DNA from: Candidatus Zhuqueibacterota bacterium
GTDB taxonomy: Bacteria; SM23-31
DNA: 12,561 nucleotides
Assembly (NCBI GenBank): GCA_022562855.1
Contig: JADFON010000026.1
Coordinates: 1 to 12,561 of the forward strand
Direction: 5' to 3'
Both the position numbers and the translations under genes were made by a program. This document shows, one piece after another, positions 2,702 to 12,398 of the stretch; within the stretch, counting starts at the first letter, position 1; the number at the start of each line of letters is the position of its first letter. The notes under the pieces are model-generated. The model did no database searches, was not told the DNA's origin, and saw nothing but the letters and a program-made list of their open reading frames with translations.

Positions 2702-4153
2702 ATGGAAAAGCGGGAAGTATTTAGTTCGCGGCTGGGACTTATACTTGCAACTCTTGGTATGGCTCTCGGCACCGGGAATATTTGGAGATTCCCACGAATT
2801 ATTGCCCAGAATGGCGGGGGTTCGTTTCTTATTCCCTGGCTGATATTTCTCTTTTTGTGGTCGATTCCTTTGTTAATCCTTGAATTCAGCCTTGGAAAGG
2901 CAGCGCGTAAGGGAACTATCGGCTCTTTTGGAAAAATCATGGGCAAAAAGTTCGGATGGATGGGCTCTTACGTTGGTTTCTGTGCGATGGCAATAATGTT
3001 TTACTATTCCGTTGTAACGGGTTGGTGTATAAAGTACCTGTTTTCTTCGGTTTCCGGCTCGGTTCTCAGTCAAGATGGTCAAGCTTTCTGGAACTCTTTC
3101 TTGTCTTCAAGTTACCAGCCTATAATCTTTCATTTCATGGCTATGCTTTTCGGGTCATTTATAATATATAAGGGCGTTCGGGGGATAGAAAAAGTGAATA
3201 AAATCCTGATTCCATCACTCCTTGTAATATTGCTTATTGGGATGATAAGAGCACTTACTCTCCCGGGTGCAGCCGCAGGATTGAATTACTTATTTACTCC
3301 GAATTTCAGCGACCTTCTAAATTATAAGATTTGGCTTGAAGCGCTTACACAATCTGCCTGGTCTACCGGGGCAGGTTGGGGTCTTGTTATTACCTATGCG
3401 GTCTACATGAGAGAAAAAGAGGATATCGTACTTAATTCAACTATTATCGGGTTTGGCGATTACGGTGTTTCTCTGATTGCGGCTATCACGATTATCCCTG
3501 TTGTGTTCGCTCTTATGCCGTCTATTGAAGCAGCGACAGAACTTGTGCAGCAGTCAGGTCCAGCCAGCACCGGGTTGACTTTTATCTGGATACCTGAATT
3601 GTTTAACCAAATGCCGGGCGGTAGGTTTTTCCTTATATTATTTTTTCTCGCACTCAGTTTTGCGGCGATTTCTTCTTTGATTTCGATGATTGAATTGACG
3701 ACAAGAATATTTATAGACATGGGACTGACAAGAAAAAAAGCTATCATCATGGTAGGGTCGACCGCATTCGTGCTCGGCGCCCCATCTGCGCTCAGTATGG
3801 GTTTCTTTGGAAACCAGGATTGGGTATGGGGAGTCGGATTACTGGTAAGCGGGTTTTTTATCGCGATGGCAGCAATTACCTACGGAGTCAAAAAGTTTAG
3901 AAATGATTTTATTAACCAGGAAGGAAACGATATACATCTCGGAAAGTTTTTTGATATAATTGTATATCTTATACCGGTCCAGTTTGTTGTTCTCTTATGG
4001 TGGTGGTTTAGCCAGGCGGGCGGATGGACAGATATCTTTAGTTCGTACAGTGTCGGTACCTGCCTGATCCAGTGGGGACTGGCAATTACTATTTTTATAG
4101 TTTTTAACAAAAAAATTATGGCTCTCACTTTAAAGGAAGGGGAAGCTCGATGA
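2702..4153 (+). CDS. sodium-dependent transporter, NSS/SNF family (probably amino acid uptake)
   Basis: A 483-residue inner-membrane protein of the neurotransmitter:sodium symporter family, which couples inward sodium flow to import of amino acids or similar solutes. The N-terminus has the family hallmark: an unwound first helix with GNIWRFP at residues 25-31, followed by NGGGSFLIPW. About eleven or twelve hydrophobic segments follow. The sodium-site region in the eighth helix (LSFAAISSLISMIELTTRIF, near residues 318-337) is also recognisable. A purine-rich stretch, AAGGGAAAAA, lies just before the ATG. The stop overlaps the ATG of a 40-residue membrane peptide by four bases. That pairing matches MetP/MetS-type bacterial NSS transporters, so methionine or alanine are plausible substrates; this substrate call is inference. 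Confidence 0.93.
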   Translation: MEKREVFSSRLGLILATLGMALGTGNIWRFPRIIAQNGGGSFLIPWLIFLFLWSIPLLILEFSLGKAARKGTIGSFGKIMGKKFGWMGSYVGFCAMAIMFYYSVVTGWCIKYLFSSVSGSVLSQDGQAFWNSFLSSSYQPIIFHFMAMLFGSFIIYKGVRGIEKVNKILIPSLLVILLIGMIRALTLPGAAAGLNYLFTPNFSDLLNYKIWLEALTQSAWSTGAGWGLVITYAVYMREKEDIVLNSTIIGFGDYGVSLIAAITIIPVVFALMPSIEAATELVQQSGPASTGLTFIWIPELFNQMPGGRFFLILFFLALSFAAISSLISMIELTTRIFIDMGLTRKKAIIMVGSTAFVLGAPSALSMGFFGNQDWVWGVGLLVSGFFIAMAAITYGVKKFRNDFINQEGNDIHLGKFFDIIVYLIPVQFVVLLWWWFSQAGGWTDIFSSYSVGTCLIQWGLAITIFIVFNKKIMALTLKEGEAR

Positions 4154-4272
4154 ATACGTCCGCAATAGTTATGCTGATCGTTGTTGGCGGCATTGTCTGG
4201 ATTGGATTTATTGTCTCCTTGCGAATCGCTCTAAAACGTGAAAAAGGGAAAAATTCCGCTGATACTGAATAG
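4150..4272 (+). CDS. MetS-like small membrane subunit of the NSS transporter (40 aa)
   Basis: A 40-residue reading frame starts with ATG inside the ATGA overlap at the end of the transporter gene and ends with TAG. It has one hydrophobic helix (IVMLIVVGGIVWIGFIVSL, about residues 6-24) followed by a basic then acidic tail (RIALKREKGKNSADTE). This is the pattern of the methionine/alanine import NSS transporter small subunit, a family in which the small partner (MetS in Corynebacterium) is needed for transport by the large subunit. Stop/start overlap implies translational coupling and one-to-one production with the transporter. The gene is short enough that automated callers often miss it. Identification rests on topology and context rather than long sequence motifs. 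Confidence 0.82.
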   Translation: MNTSAIVMLIVVGGIVWIGFIVSLRIALKREKGKNSADTE

Positions 4273-4287
4273 GTTGCGATAAACAAA

Positions 4288-5352
4288 ATGACTAAGAAAC
4301 AATCATACCGTGATAAATTATTAATGATCAGAAATTCCGATTTGATGCCTTCTTACGTATTTACGGGAGCAGAGGATTTTCTTCGCGAGACAGCGGTTAC
4401 TATGATAACTGAAAAGGCAAAAACCGAAGATGACGGGGAAGTTACGATTACAAAGTTCTATGGAGAAGAGATTGAAGCGGATGAACTGAGTGTCGATCTG
4501 TTATCATATTCACTGTTTTCAGACCGGAAATTTATCATTATTAAGGATGCAGGCAGAATGAAAAAAACCTGTTGGGTGGTTATTGAGAATTATATAAAGG
4601 AACCGTTTGAAAAAACAGTACTTATACTCGATAGTGAAAAAATAAAGACGCGGGAGAAAAAGCCGGATGATTCCGACGGCTCAGGTAAAAATATTGGTTC
4701 AGTAATAAACTATGTCATGAAGCATTCATTCTGTCTTGATTTCCCATTGTTATATGATAACCAAATAATGGAGTGGATGAACAGATACACGAGTAAATTA
4801 GGCTTAAAAGTCAGTCCCGAAGCCCTCAGGGTTCTTATCGATGCTAATGAAAATAATCTTAGAAATTTTGTAAATGAGTTTGAAAAACTCCGTCTTAATT
4901 TTCCCGGTGAACAACTGATAAACGAATCGGATATGTTAGAACTCATACAGACCAACCGGGGTTTTAAAATATTTGAATTTTTAGACTCTATATGTGAGGC
5001 AGACGGGTCACGGGCAATTGCACAATTACAACAAATAATATTGCAAAATGAAAATGCCCCTTATGTTTTGGTAATGATTACCCGGCAGTTGACCAACCTG
5101 CTAAAAATAAGAATTTTTCTGGACAAAGGGATTCACAGGAGCAAGATTTATAAAGTTTCGGGTATGAATTCGTACGTTGTGGGTAAATGTTTACCACAGG
5201 CAGAAAGAATATCTTTCGAGGAACTCAGAGGGCTGCTTGAGGCAACGCTTGAAGCGGACAAAGGTCTCAAAACCGGTTATCAGACCGATCAAATGATTTT
5301 AACGATACTTATACAAAAATTTATATCGGCTTTTAGCAAAAATGCTGCGTAA
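4288..5352 (+). CDS. holA: DNA polymerase III, delta subunit
   Basis: The delta subunit is the 'wrench' of the clamp-loader complex: it opens the beta sliding clamp so it can be placed on primed DNA. The 354-residue protein is close to the usual 330-350. The N-terminal AAA+-like domain begins with YVFTGAEDFLRETAVTMI (residues ~18-35), resembling the usual ...lleG.e.yl.......i start, and lacks a Walker A motif, as expected for delta. KFIIIKDAGRMKK (~77-89) and the lid segment LRVLIDANENNLRNFVNEFEKL (family L...vg.dl..l..EleKL) are characteristic. The C-terminal helical collar has the LVMITRQLTNLLKI segment typical of HolA. It starts 15 bases after the MetS-like gene with only a weak ribosome binding site. 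A stretch of about 84 bases separates it from the sigma-factor gene. Confidence 0.88.
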   Translation: MTKKQSYRDKLLMIRNSDLMPSYVFTGAEDFLRETAVTMITEKAKTEDDGEVTITKFYGEEIEADELSVDLLSYSLFSDRKFIIIKDAGRMKKTCWVVIENYIKEPFEKTVLILDSEKIKTREKKPDDSDGSGKNIGSVINYVMKHSFCLDFPLLYDNQIMEWMNRYTSKLGLKVSPEALRVLIDANENNLRNFVNEFEKLRLNFPGEQLINESDMLELIQTNRGFKIFEFLDSICEADGSRAIAQLQQIILQNENAPYVLVMITRQLTNLLKIRIFLDKGIHRSKIYKVSGMNSYVVGKCLPQAERISFEELRGLLEATLEADKGLKTGYQTDQMILTILIQKFISAFSKNAA

Positions 5353-9324: not shown

Positions 9325-9588
9325 ATGTTCAATTTAAATAAAACAAAATTAATTATTCCTGTTCTCTTGATCGTTCTGATAATCGGGATACAAAATAAAT
9401 CGCGGGAAAGGATCGACAAGACCGACAGTCCCGAATTTGAATTATACTTTACTGCAAACCCACAATATCTGAAGTTTATGTCCGCTGGATTTGATGGTAC
9501 AATCGCCGATTATTACTGGATTAAAGCAGTCCTCTATTTTGGAAGAATGGTAACCGGAGACGATTTAGAAATGTTTTTCAACTTCTAG
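9325..9588 (+). CDS. N-terminal fragment of a membrane-anchored protein, cut at the compositional join
   Basis: An 87-residue reading frame with an N-terminal signal anchor (KLIIPVLLIVLIIGIQ, residues 7-22) and then MSAGFDGTIADYYWIKAVLYFGRM. That segment resembles the start of longer, often TPR-containing, membrane proteins found beside ABC-2 exporter genes, in which '..DYyWik...YfG' is followed by a conserved stretch on the far side of the membrane and by TPR-like repeats. Here the protein stops at TAG 9586-9588, exactly where base composition changes, and none of the expected remainder is found downstream in any frame. The last codons (EMFFNF) still look like chromosomal sequence. It is therefore a gene broken by insertion, rearrangement or mis-assembly, and probably not functional. 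The family link is from memory and moderate in confidence. Confidence 0.7.
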   Translation: MFNLNKTKLIIPVLLIVLIIGIQNKSRERIDKTDSPEFELYFTANPQYLKFMSAGFDGTIADYYWIKAVLYFGRMVTGDDLEMFFNF

Positions 9589-9600
9589 GACTCCTGAAAA
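9583..9600. other. compositional join between AT-rich chromosome and GC-rich accessory DNA
   Basis: To the left, AT-rich codons of a truncated gene run up to about 9585. To the right, the small proline-rich gene starts at 9600 in clearly GC-richer sequence. The joint may be the left edge of an inserted island or a chimeric assembly point. No transposase, integrase or terminal repeat is visible, and the matching right edge is not in the window. Confidence 0.6.
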
Positions 9601-9740
9601 TGGCCAATGAAAACAAACCAGATAAGCCGGACCGTCCGGACCGACCTGACGTACCTCCGGGCCCACCAAGCGAGACTCCAGGGCTCCCAGACGGCCCGCC
9701 TCGTCCGAGCATACCGCCTGGTCACCGCCCGGTAGGCTAA
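9600..9740 (+). CDS. 46-residue proline-rich peptide ending in Val-Gly; candidate modifier/substrate of the E2-E1/JAB system
   Basis: This short gene begins with ATG behind a plausible ribosome binding site (AGGAC at 9587-9591, 8 bases upstream) and ends TAA, four bases before the E2-E1 gene. About a third of the residues are proline (16 of 46), placed every third residue over residues 7-22 (KPDKPDRPDRPDVPPGPP) and again, in a shifted register, over 27-39. It is hydrophilic, with no cysteine and no membrane helix, so it is probably disordered or a polyproline-II rod. The C-terminus is PPGHRPVG. In bacterial E1/E2/JAB operons the first gene usually encodes the protein whose C-terminus is adenylated and conjugated (a ubiquitin-like protein or the CD-NTase). 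Position and terminal glycine suggest the same job here. It is far too short for a beta-grasp fold. I do not recognise a named family; function is inference. Confidence 0.68.
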   Translation: MANENKPDKPDRPDRPDVPPGPPSETPGLPDGPPRPSIPPGHRPVG

Positions 9741-9744
9741 GCCT

Positions 9745-11562
9745 TTGGCACCGCGGTCGAAGGCGTCGCGCAGGGCTCCACGCGATACGAGTTGGTGGAG
9801 TGTCTGGCCCGTTCTGTACAAACAAGAGCTCAACGCCTTTGACCAGAGGGGCATTTCTTACCGGATCAGGCTAAAAAAGAAGGGCCTTCTCGCCCTTGAG
9901 GTAGACTGGCCGGTCAAGGGGCGCGAATCGTTGCGCCTCCATGTTAGTTTTTCACCGTTGCACCCATTTTTTCGACCTGCTGTAGCGGCACCACAAGAAA
10001 CATTTGAACGGCACCAAAATCCATTTAATAGGGATTTGTGTTTGATCACCCAGGAGACACACCAATGGGACTCAGGGAAACTAATCGCGGATTTCATTGA
10101 CGAACGCTTACAACAGTTCCTAAGCGCTCTTGAGGCACGGCGCGAGAAGCGATGGGAAGATGCGGCGGAGTTGGAGGAGCAAGCTGCCGATCCTTTAATG
10201 CCTTACTTCACACATGCGGCTGAAGACAACTCGATCATTCTATTCGACGGTAGGATGCCCATACCACACGCAGACCATGGTCTCATGGACCTCGTTCTGT
10301 GGACCCGCCCATTCAATCACGGCCAATCTATCGAGGTGGTGCTACGGCAGTTAAAGAGGGCCGATGGCAGCGTGATCGGCCAAACATTCATTCCGCTCGG
10401 GAATCCGCCAGAAGAGCGCCAGATTCCCGGACGCTGGGTCCGTTTGAGCCGACCGCCAATTGCGGATAACCCGACGGCACTCATGCTCTCGGTCACAGAA
10501 GAGTTGGAGAGGCGGGAGGTTCTGCGGCCGAAGGACATCTGCAAACTTAACCAGATTGCCGAAGAAGCCTTTTCGATTACGGGCATCATCTTTCCAGAGG
10601 AAGTGGAATACAGTCACGGCAAAATCGGCGCTGGCTGGCTGTTTCTTGTCAGCCGCCGAGAATTCATAGAAGGGGCGCCCGGGTCGCCGCAGATCAGTTT
10701 GGTTCGTGGGGAGCGCGCCAGCGACCGGGATATTTTTGCTCGTCTCCCAGTAGCCAGCGCTCTGGAAGCGAAGAAAGTGCTTCTCACCGGTTGTGGCGCA
10801 ATCGGAAGTTTTGCAGCCGTCGAGTTAGCTCGCGCTGGCGTCGGGAATCTTGCTTTACTCGATTCCGACGTGGTCCAACCCGGTAACGGCCTACGATGGC
10901 CACTGGGACGTAGAGCCTGGGGCGTCAAGAAATCGGTAGCCCTCAAGTATTTCATTGATCAGAATTATCCTCGGACGAAGGTGGATGCTCTTCACGGCCG
11001 TCTTGGTAGCGGAATGACACATGACACAGCGCTTCCGGCAGAAGTTGAAAGTAACCCCACTCAACTCGCCCAAATTCTGGGCCTAATCCAGGATGCCGAT
11101 CTCGTAATCGATGCATCCGCGTCAACCGAAGTGCAACACGCTATAAATTTCTACTGCCGTGATCTCGGAAAGCCCTTGGTAATGGGATATGCAACCGAGG
11201 GTCTTGCAGGAGGTGTCGTAGCCCGCTTCAGGTCCCGTTCCGACGCGTGCTGGGTGTGTCTAAACGAACACTGGAACGACGAGGATGGGCCGCTCCCCAA
11301 ATTGCGTATTGATAAGACTGGCGTGGTTACGCCGATCGGCTGCAACCAACCCACCTTCACCGGCGGAAGCTTTGACCTCCAAGAAGTGTCGCTTGAAATT
11401 GTGCGGAGTGCTATCGGCCTACTCGCCGATGGCGCCTATGACCCCGGTAGCTGGTCGGTAGCCATTCTTGAGCTTCGGGATGATCGCGGGCACCGCATTC
11501 TCCCGACTTGGACCAACCATAATCCTCCACCTCATCCCAACTGCCGCTGTAGCAACAAGTGA
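9745..11562 (+). CDS. E2-E1 fusion, ubiquitin-like conjugating enzyme (Cap2-like)
   Basis: A 605-residue fusion. Residues ~25-130 are an E2-like domain: HQN at 90-92 stands where E2 enzymes have HPN, and Cys99 in FNRDLCLI is the expected catalytic cysteine, followed by Trp108 as in the usual CL..........W pattern. Residues ~160-320 match the linker region of Cap2-type proteins in size. Residues ~340-605 are a ThiF/E1 adenylation domain: nucleotide loop LTGCGAIGS (347-355), DSDVVQPGNGLRW (373-385) with Asp, Asn and Arg of the ATP site, and VIDASAS (454-460). Cys533 in PIGCNQPTFTGGSFD is the likely E1 catalytic cysteine. Cys502/Cys505 (CWVC) and Cys600/Cys602 (CRC) probably bind zinc. Size and order match CBASS Cap2, which ligates a protein C-terminus to targets. 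The TTG at 9745 is the only start after an in-frame stop at 9733-9735; the ribosome binding site is weak (GTAGG). Confidence 0.9.
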   Translation: MAPRSKASRRAPRDTSWWSVWPVLYKQELNAFDQRGISYRIRLKKKGLLALEVDWPVKGRESLRLHVSFSPLHPFFRPAVAAPQETFERHQNPFNRDLCLITQETHQWDSGKLIADFIDERLQQFLSALEARREKRWEDAAELEEQAADPLMPYFTHAAEDNSIILFDGRMPIPHADHGLMDLVLWTRPFNHGQSIEVVLRQLKRADGSVIGQTFIPLGNPPEERQIPGRWVRLSRPPIADNPTALMLSVTEELERREVLRPKDICKLNQIAEEAFSITGIIFPEEVEYSHGKIGAGWLFLVSRREFIEGAPGSPQISLVRGERASDRDIFARLPVASALEAKKVLLTGCGAIGSFAAVELARAGVGNLALLDSDVVQPGNGLRWPLGRRAWGVKKSVALKYFIDQNYPRTKVDALHGRLGSGMTHDTALPAEVESNPTQLAQILGLIQDADLVIDASASTEVQHAINFYCRDLGKPLVMGYATEGLAGGVVARFRSRSDACWVCLNEHWNDEDGPLPKLRIDKTGVVTPIGCNQPTFTGGSFDLQEVSLEIVRSAIGLLADGAYDPGSWSVAILELRDDRGHRILPTWTNHNPPPHPNCRCSNK

Positions 11563-12053
11563 CAGTCTGGTTAGCTAATACGGCGTTTCGCGCGATGTGC
11601 GAGGAGGGAGCCGCCCTTCATCCACTTGAAAGCGGCGGCATTGTCCTTGGCTGGCGCGCCAGCAATGACACTGTAGTAATTGATGTTCGCGGGCCGGGTC
11701 CGCAAGCCTTACACGGCCGCTACCGTTTCCTACCCGACCATCGGTGGCAAGTTGCTGAGATTCATCGACTCTTCGAGGAGACTTGCGGTGATATTGACTA
11801 TCTTGGCGACTGGCACTCGCACCCAGATGGTTCTTCGGCCATAAGTAGCGAGGATCGCGCTACCCTCCGGCGTATTTCCCGCCGTGTACACGAACCACTG
11901 ATGCTCATTATTGCGGATGACGGTAGCCAGGAAAGCTGGATAACGGGCTGCTGGAAAGGACGCCGGCATCGCGGTCTAATCTACCGACGTTTTGAGGTCG
12001 TTATAGAGTCCATCAAATTGTTTGAACCGCCGCCGAACTGGACTATTGAATGA
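11559..12053 (+). CDS. JAMM/JAB-domain isopeptidase (Cap3-like, Mov34/MPN/PAD-1 family)
   Basis: A 164-residue zinc metalloprotease of the JAB family, which cuts isopeptide bonds to remove ubiquitin-like modifiers or mature their C-termini. The full JAMM signature is present: Glu24 in PLESGG, then His86-Ser-His88-Pro, then Ser96 and Asp99 (HSHPDGSSAISSED). Two histidines and the aspartate bind zinc, and the glutamate activates water, so the enzyme should be active. Length and lack of extra domains match CBASS Cap3. The GTG start overlaps the E2-E1 stop by four bases (GTGA), showing translational coupling. It is the last gene of the operon; no effector follows. In CBASS the equivalent enzyme reverses Cap2 conjugation; here the natural substrate would be the product of the E2-E1 enzyme, possibly carrying the 46-residue peptide. 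Confidence 0.93.
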   Translation: MTVWLANTAFRAMCEEGAALHPLESGGIVLGWRASNDTVVIDVRGPGPQALHGRYRFLPDHRWQVAEIHRLFEETCGDIDYLGDWHSHPDGSSAISSEDRATLRRISRRVHEPLMLIIADDGSQESWITGCWKGRRHRGLIYRRFEVVIESIKLFEPPPNWTIE

Positions 12054-12158
12054 TTAAAGGTCAACCATGCGGTGCCGGTCAAACAACGTGCTAAAAATTA
12101 TTAGACCTAGTTTCGCTTCCCTGGCTGTGGAAGACGATTGACCGAAATGGGGACGCGC

Positions 12159-12398
12159 ATGAAAACCAACGGTGCCTCCGAGGCCAGGACCCATTTCTCC
12201 CGCCTACTGGAGCGGGCCGCGAATGGCGAACAGGTCGTGATCACAAGGCACGGCACGCCGATGGCGCGCCTCGTGCCCTTCGCCAAACCCGACGGCGCGC
12301 GGACGCGGCGCGCGATCTCCCGTCTCAAGACCTCCCGCAAGGGACGCCGCCTGGATGGCCTCTCCTGGAAAGAGCTGCGCGATAACGGGCGCTGCTGA
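12159..12398 (+). CDS. Phd/YefM-type antitoxin without an adjacent toxin
   Basis: A 79-residue protein of the Phd/YefM (type II antitoxin) family. The N-terminal DNA-binding/dimer domain is typical: KTNGASEARTHFSRLLERAA, then GEQVVITRHGTPMARLVPF. The C-terminal half is basic and then ends in the short LDGLSWKELRDNGRC tail, which resembles the toxin-binding tail of antitoxins paired with VapC/PIN toxins. Such antitoxins normally overlap or abut their toxin gene, but no PIN, Doc or RelE-like frame follows within the 163 bases left. I chose the ATG at 12159 because GGGGA lies 5 bases before it and the protein then begins where the family does; TTG 12138 and ATG 12147 are in-frame alternatives. 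This stretch is even more GC-rich than the preceding operon. Confidence 0.85.
   Translation: MKTNGASEARTHFSRLLERAANGEQVVITRHGTPMARLVPFAKPDGARTRRAISRLKTSRKGRRLDGLSWKELRDNGRC

Follow-up and report, generated by a model that had tools for sequence, protein, structure and literature searches.

A proline-rich, apparently foldless peptide with an invariant Val–Gly end, encoded with a Cap2-like E2–E1 fusion and a JAB protease, as a candidate bacterial modifier

To our knowledge, every modifier that passes through E1 and E2 enzymes has a fold; Pup, the one well-known modifier that is disordered, depends on an unrelated ligase chemistry. The modifiers of the bacterial Bil and Bub systems are folded ubiquitin-like domains. 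Pup and UBact end in GGE or GGQ and are ligated through a side chain. We know of no precedent for a disordered E1/E2 substrate that lacks a globular docking domain. In type II CBASS, the C-terminal Gly of cGAS becomes linked to Cap2 as a thioester, Cap2 conjugates cGAS to proteins, and Cap3 is the isopeptidase; the penultimate residues of the Cap2 substrate are variable (PMC10097602). No proline-rich peptide with E1, E2 and JAB partners was found described in the full-text literature; an earlier mention is not excluded, as several central papers were outside this coverage.

Here, we describe a peptide of this kind. Because a peptide ending in VG precedes ubiquitin-type enzymes in at least three phyla, it is probable that bacteria possess a form of ubiquitin-like labelling in which the label is foldless.

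The three-gene module in the window

The window, that is, the whole stretch of DNA analyzed (12,561 nucleotides), is the entire contig of a draft assembly. It contains a compact module of three genes in the order proline-rich peptide, E2–E1 fusion, and JAB/JAMM protease. The features are as follows.

9587–9590, + strand: AGGA, Shine–Dalgarno-like, probable ribosome-binding site of the peptide gene (from the sequence and the orthologues)
9600–9740, + strand: proline-rich disordered peptide, proposed modifier (orthologues in about 60 loci, invariant VG)
9745–11562, + strand: E2–E1 fusion protein, 605 aa (ThiF PF00899, 3.4e-21; Cap2 7to3 is the best PDB relative)
9793–10143, + strand: E2/UBC domain, about residues 17–133 (UBE2L3 profile match, profile positions 13–135)
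10012–10014, + strand: E2 His90 (invariant in 34 rows)
10039–10041, + strand: E2 catalytic Cys99 (invariant in 34 rows)
10717–11559, + strand: E1 adenylation domain, about residues 325–605 (VIA-align Z 28 to MoeB/ThiF)
11341–11343, + strand: candidate catalytic E1 Cys533 (invariant in 34 rows)
11559–12053, + strand: JAB/JAMM metalloprotease, 164 aa (Prok-JAB PF14464, 1.7e-14; Cap3 model, 1e-13)

The ORF at 9600–9740 starts with an ATG located 9 nt after the AGGA, and sites of the AGGAG or GGAG type are found at the equivalent place in most peptide orthologues. Its 46-aa product is MANENKPDKPDRPDRPDVPPGPPSETPGLPDGPPRPSIPPGHRPVG, with ...PPGHRPVG as the C-terminal end. No family match was obtained for this peptide in Pfam, NCBIfam, or PADLOC. 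Prolines occupy residues 7, 10, 13, 16, 19, 20, 22, 23, 27, 30, 33, 34, 36, 39, 40, and 44. An earlier note on this DNA, made from the letters alone, had pointed to prolines at a period of three in a disordered body. The positions that it listed are all correct, five further prolines are present, and the period is real, with 10 Pro–Pro pairs at this spacing versus 5.1 when the residues are shuffled (p = 0.0016). The excess of Pro at spacing 3 is also seen across 49 short distinct orthologues (518 versus 327, z = 17), and it recurs as echoes at spacings 6 and 9. The disordered body is supported by the AlphaFold model of the peptide, which has no secondary structure (pTM 0.18).

The E2–E1 gene begins 4 bp past the stop codon of the peptide gene, and the JAB gene overlaps the E2–E1 gene by 4 bp. 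By sequence profile, Cap2 (7to3) is the best relative of the fusion protein among solved structures (E 7.6e-24). The AlphaFold model of the fusion (mean pLDDT 80.6) matches the fold of the same structure over the whole chain (E 4.5e-24, about 16% identity). The VIA-align list contains E1 domains only and is therefore silent on the middle of the protein. Relatives in the family match Prok-E2_B (PF14461), and the E2–E1 of the window is below that threshold. In the 34-row alignment, Trp108 is invariant alongside His90 and Cys99, and the residues of the E1 ATP site (GxGxxG at 349–354, Lys396, and Asp456) are invariant or nearly so. Cys533 is a candidate for the catalytic cysteine of the E1, as inferred from its invariance and place, and Cys502, Cys505, Cys600, and Cys602 form a probable Zn site in the same domain. 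The JAMM residues of the JAB protease in the window (Glu24, His86-x-His88, and Asp99) are intact, and the motif is present in 50 of 54 loci.

The peptide family and its linkage to the enzyme

Upstream of each E2–E1, any proline-rich ORF was sought without prescribing its C-terminal end. In nearly every locus, such an ORF abuts or overlaps the E2–E1 gene and its product ends in VG, in some cases with one or two further residues, and selection on proline content alone returned the same set of peptides. All 51 distinct peptides have this end: VG is the exact terminus in 45, and it is followed by QQ, LL, LN, QG, Q, or R in the other six. Up to the Gly, the endings read RPVG (37 peptides), KHVG (5), RQVG (3), RKVG (2), or others. 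The short peptides are 39–70 aa long and consist of 37% Pro and 14% Gly, with no Cys or Tyr. Their bodies vary, containing HPEHPEHP repeats (Arthrobacter), RPDRPD, KEPKDP repeats (L113, another actinobacterium), NPTPPGNP (Hymenobacteraceae), or tandem YegP/DUF1508 domains. In the last case, found in two Hymenobacter lineages (L039, 3537–4019, and L047, 1602–2090), two DUF1508 (YegP) domains are fused before a proline-rich VG tail, and this fusion replaces the short peptide.

The peptide frame is under strong purifying selection, with dN/dS of 0.04–0.12 in four orthologue groups, and the differences lie mostly at the third codon position (e.g., 238 at position 1, 237 at position 2, and 1616 at position 3). 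In the group with the KHVG end, dN/dS was 0.62 with few changes, and the sequences are too similar for a selection test. A signature of at least eight Pro in the last 35 aa and an end of VG plus 0–2 residues was counted in 1.16 Mb of strand sequence from the loci: the + strand has 57 instances, one for each system, and the − strand has none. Its absence from the − strand, together with the low dN/dS, rules out a chance proline-rich ORF in GC-rich DNA. The ORF in the window is a genuine gene.

In 50 of 54 loci, the peptide lies directly upstream of E2–E1 with a gap of −8 to +16 bp, and no intact E2–E1 of the clade lacks it. Where an intact peptide is absent (L032, L036, L053, and L061), the E2–E1 is broken or truncated, and some loci (e.g., L004, L033, and L035) retain the peptide beside a frameshifted E2–E1. 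The distances between peptides and those between enzymes co-vary (Mantel r 0.76, a value reached in 0 of 2000 permutations), and VG is unchanged across deep branches of the enzyme tree. A comparison of the neighborhoods revealed no other gene common to all loci, and the peptide is therefore the sole modifier candidate that the module encodes. The earlier note had suggested a tag combining a disordered body with E1/E2/JAB chemistry and had named a nonconserved terminal glycine and an unselected frame as grounds for refutation. On both points the suggestion survived, as the orthologues keep the terminal Gly while their bodies vary and the frame is selected. Some orthologues also extend one or two residues past the Gly, as would suit trimming by JAB. 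Moreover, the peptide occurs strictly together with an E2–E1 that has the full set of catalytic residues.

Distribution, neighboring genes, and host

The module was found in about 60 loci, which were gathered by tblastn in plasmids, a scan of genome contigs, and further genome searches. They belong to Pseudomonadota (Alpha- and Gammaproteobacteria), Actinomycetota, and Bacteroidota, and a single decayed locus (L056) is in a Planctomycetota MAG. The module is rare in Bacteroidota (1 of 395 genomes) and Actinomycetota (2–3 of 346 genomes) at large, and no relatives of the E2–E1 were found in viral contigs and phage records. Carriers include the culturable bacteria Azospirillum brasilense, Sinorhizobium fredii NGR234, Mesorhizobium, Arthrobacter, and Hymenobacter, which makes the idea directly testable. 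Plasmid pNGR234a (NC_000914.2) has two modules, at 251811–254044 and 296814–299060 (L098/L078 and L003), which differ in their tag ends (KHVG and RPVG), and a separate 6c system is also there. The peptide gene is unannotated in most plasmid records examined (the PLSDB gene table is incomplete); the Hymenobacter peptide is annotated as a hypothetical protein in a plasmid record. In L106, from a genome of the same family as Pontibacter and Hymenobacter, a different small protein of 104 aa (233–547) with no Pfam match precedes a more distant E1 and is a possible Ubl.

An HTH gene and/or an IrrE-like M78 peptidase is located divergent from or adjacent to the module in about 10 loci (Pseudomonadota and Bacteroidota). 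In seven other loci (L003, L005, L023–L025, L030, and L031), a RES–Xre toxin–antitoxin pair is situated immediately upstream of the module and divergent from it. The HTH and M78 peptidase neighbors resemble CapH+CapP, although their true identity as CapH/CapP is unproven. When DNA is damaged, CapH+CapP activate immune operons, CBASS among them, and the pair is frequent beside Bub operons (PMC13373217). The YegP-bodied tags deserve attention because yegP-like genes occur behind CapK+CapS, which are related regulators, in 57 cases (PMC13373217). A role of the module in defence (against phage) or in a stress response is likely but unproven. It is proposed because, in many lineages, regulators of the DNA-damage or toxin–antitoxin type (the pairs of HTH gene and IrrE-like peptidase and the RES–Xre pairs) appear to adjoin the module, and the defence reading leans on neighbors in a minority of loci. 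No regulator is visible near the module in the window itself. Downstream of the JAB gene, a Phd/YefM-type antitoxin is encoded at 12138–12398 (PF02604, 6.4e-13), and no recognized toxin was found between it and the contig end.

Just before the module, at about 9571–9586, GC content rises abruptly from 0.34 to 0.56. The ORF to the left of this junction (9325–9588) stops at residue 87, its homology ends near residue 82, and the open frames of its relatives are 243–350 aa long. A search of the rest of the assembly did not recover the missing part of this truncated gene, a result compatible with insertion and with misjoin alike. The E2–E1 of the window has its nearest counterparts in Bradyrhizobium and Mesorhizobium (54% identity). 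The module is absent from all 59 of the other genomes that were searched as the assembly's relatives; in these genomes and in the window's own assembly, the search turned up no further copy, only ordinary ThiF/MoeB. The junction may be the edge of an inserted element or a metagenomic misjoin of two genomes, and the host of the module is therefore uncertain. The module is unaffected by this doubt because it stands on the other loci.

Proposed mechanism and comparison with known systems

What is observed directly is the order of the genes, the selection on the peptide, its invariant end, the intactness of the catalytic residues, and the relationship to Cap2. Cap2 charges the C-terminal Gly of cGAS, and in the simplest reading the E2–E1 of the module does likewise on a stand-alone tail. 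We consider it highly probable that the peptide is a disordered modifier that is activated by the E1 at its terminal Gly, passed via the E2 onto targets, and trimmed or removed by the JAB protease. The E1 half would adenylate the C-terminal glycine of the peptide with ATP, and Cys533 would then form a thioester with this glycine. The glycine would be handed to Cys99 of the E2 half, which would couple the peptide to target proteins through their amino (or hydroxyl) groups. Precursors bearing residues past VG may be trimmed by the JAB protease, which may also take the tag off its targets. Trimming of the six extended peptides is an inference, and since only 6 of 51 peptides have an extension after VG, the JAB protease may act mainly in removal or otherwise. 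The body would be the part read by partners, either as a period-3 proline chain, likely an extended rod of the PPII type, or as tandem YegP domains, and only the tail, PP-x-RPVG or similar, would need to fit the enzymes. Every chemical step (adenylate, thioester, conjugation, and cleavage by JAB) is inferred, as are the targets and the role. The wider picture, in which a foldless period-3 proline modifier runs on E2–E1 and JAB, serves phage defence or a stress response, and is present but mostly unannotated in sequenced bacteria, including twice on pNGR234a, appears reasonably likely.

MccB adenylates a peptide C-terminus in microcin C7, and both MccB and PaaA are among the relatives of the E1 by profile and fold. 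With a short peptide as substrate in the same operon, the E1-like enzyme of the module might act in the MccB style and yield a modified peptide or an antibiotic rather than a protein tag. However, the closest relative is Cap2, not MccB, and the module possesses an invariant E2 domain with Cys99, the candidate E1 Cys533, and a JAB protease. No transporter or immunity gene recurs beside it across lineages, and an MccB-type RiPP, with an E1-like enzyme without E2 and with export or immunity genes, does not fit an invariant E2 and no recurrent transporter; we regard this origin of the peptide as very unlikely. Genes for biosynthesis do not recur around the module either, which disfavors a sulfur carrier whose terminal Gly, after trimming of a precursor by JAB, is converted to a thiocarboxylate that feeds a biosynthetic pathway. 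Such trimming occurs in some siderophore or thiamine-type systems, the E1 core is of the ThiF/MoeB type, and the six extended peptides would suit the removal of C-terminal residues, but sulfur transfer does not need an E2 domain with an invariant Cys, and a carrier function seems scarcely tenable.

The peptide could instead be a noncovalent cofactor, such as a scaffold, chaperone, or inhibitor of E2–E1, with the true modifier encoded elsewhere. Proline-rich chains often serve as docking peptides, and co-divergence with the enzyme also fits a binding partner. This explanation is nevertheless improbable, as the strongest constraint is found at the extreme C-terminus, where VG is followed by nothing or by variable residues. 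Constraint on such an end is the signature of a chemically used carboxyl group, and the VG end is kept in every peptide, including those fused to YegP.

If conjugation is shown, the E1-activated peptide would represent a new class of modifier. It would mean that the tail, not the β-grasp fold, is what E1, E2, and JAB enzymes need, and it would link the tail recognition of the Cap2 type to stand-alone tags.

The term Pup-like, used in the earlier note, holds only by analogy. Like Pup and UBact, the peptide is short and disordered with a conserved C-terminus, its covalent use being inferred. Unlike them, it ends in VG (VG or VG+1–2 in 51 of 51 distinct peptides) rather than in GGE or GGQ, and its partners are E1, E2, and JAB. 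No PafA/Dop-type ligase (PF03136) was found in nine module-carrying genomes, although G000 is only 80% complete; the search matched its positive control, Corynebacterium glutamicum. The wrong terminus and the absence of PafA-family members in the nine carriers exclude that the peptide is Pup. With β-grasp modifiers the peptide shares a conserved C-terminal Gly, sometimes with a short extension. A β-grasp modifier (Bil, Bub, SAMP, or Urm1) is excluded by the lack of a domain match, the composition (37% Pro and 14% Gly), and the model without secondary structure. The Bil and Bub operons resemble the module in combining a bacterial E1, E2, and JAB with a small modifier, and the regulators are similar too (CapH+CapP, PMC13373217). 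They differ in that the modifier of the module is foldless and its E2 and E1 are fused.

The type 6c operon of Iyer 2006 (pNGR234a, 395373–398326) also has an E2–E1 fusion and a JAB and is on the same plasmid as two modules. It contains DUF2604 (Ubl-like), a metal-binding protein, and Prok-E2_C, whereas in the proline-tag loci all three are missing and Prok-E2_B is present. The module is thus not the published 6c operon, and the 6c locus of pNGR234a is a different one.

No CD-NTase and no cyclic-nucleotide effector is in the window, and none recurs beside related loci. In L114 (minus strand), a CBASS-like locus, a CD-NTase (3098–4453) ends in a proline-rich tail, ...APGHVASRPRAPRDERYG, with a terminal Gly, and adjoins a distant relative of the E2–E1 (Cap2-type) and a JAB. 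As an inference from one locus only, L114 could plausibly represent an intermediate stage on the way from a substrate with a tail to a free-standing tag. Like the Cap2/Cap3 pair of type II CBASS, the module has an E2–E1 fusion of about 600 aa and a JAB with active sites intact by sequence, and, like the Cap2 substrate, its peptide has a single C-terminal Gly and no β-grasp fold. Unlike in type II CBASS, there is no cyclase, and this Gly ends a disordered peptide of 39–70 aa or a YegP fusion.
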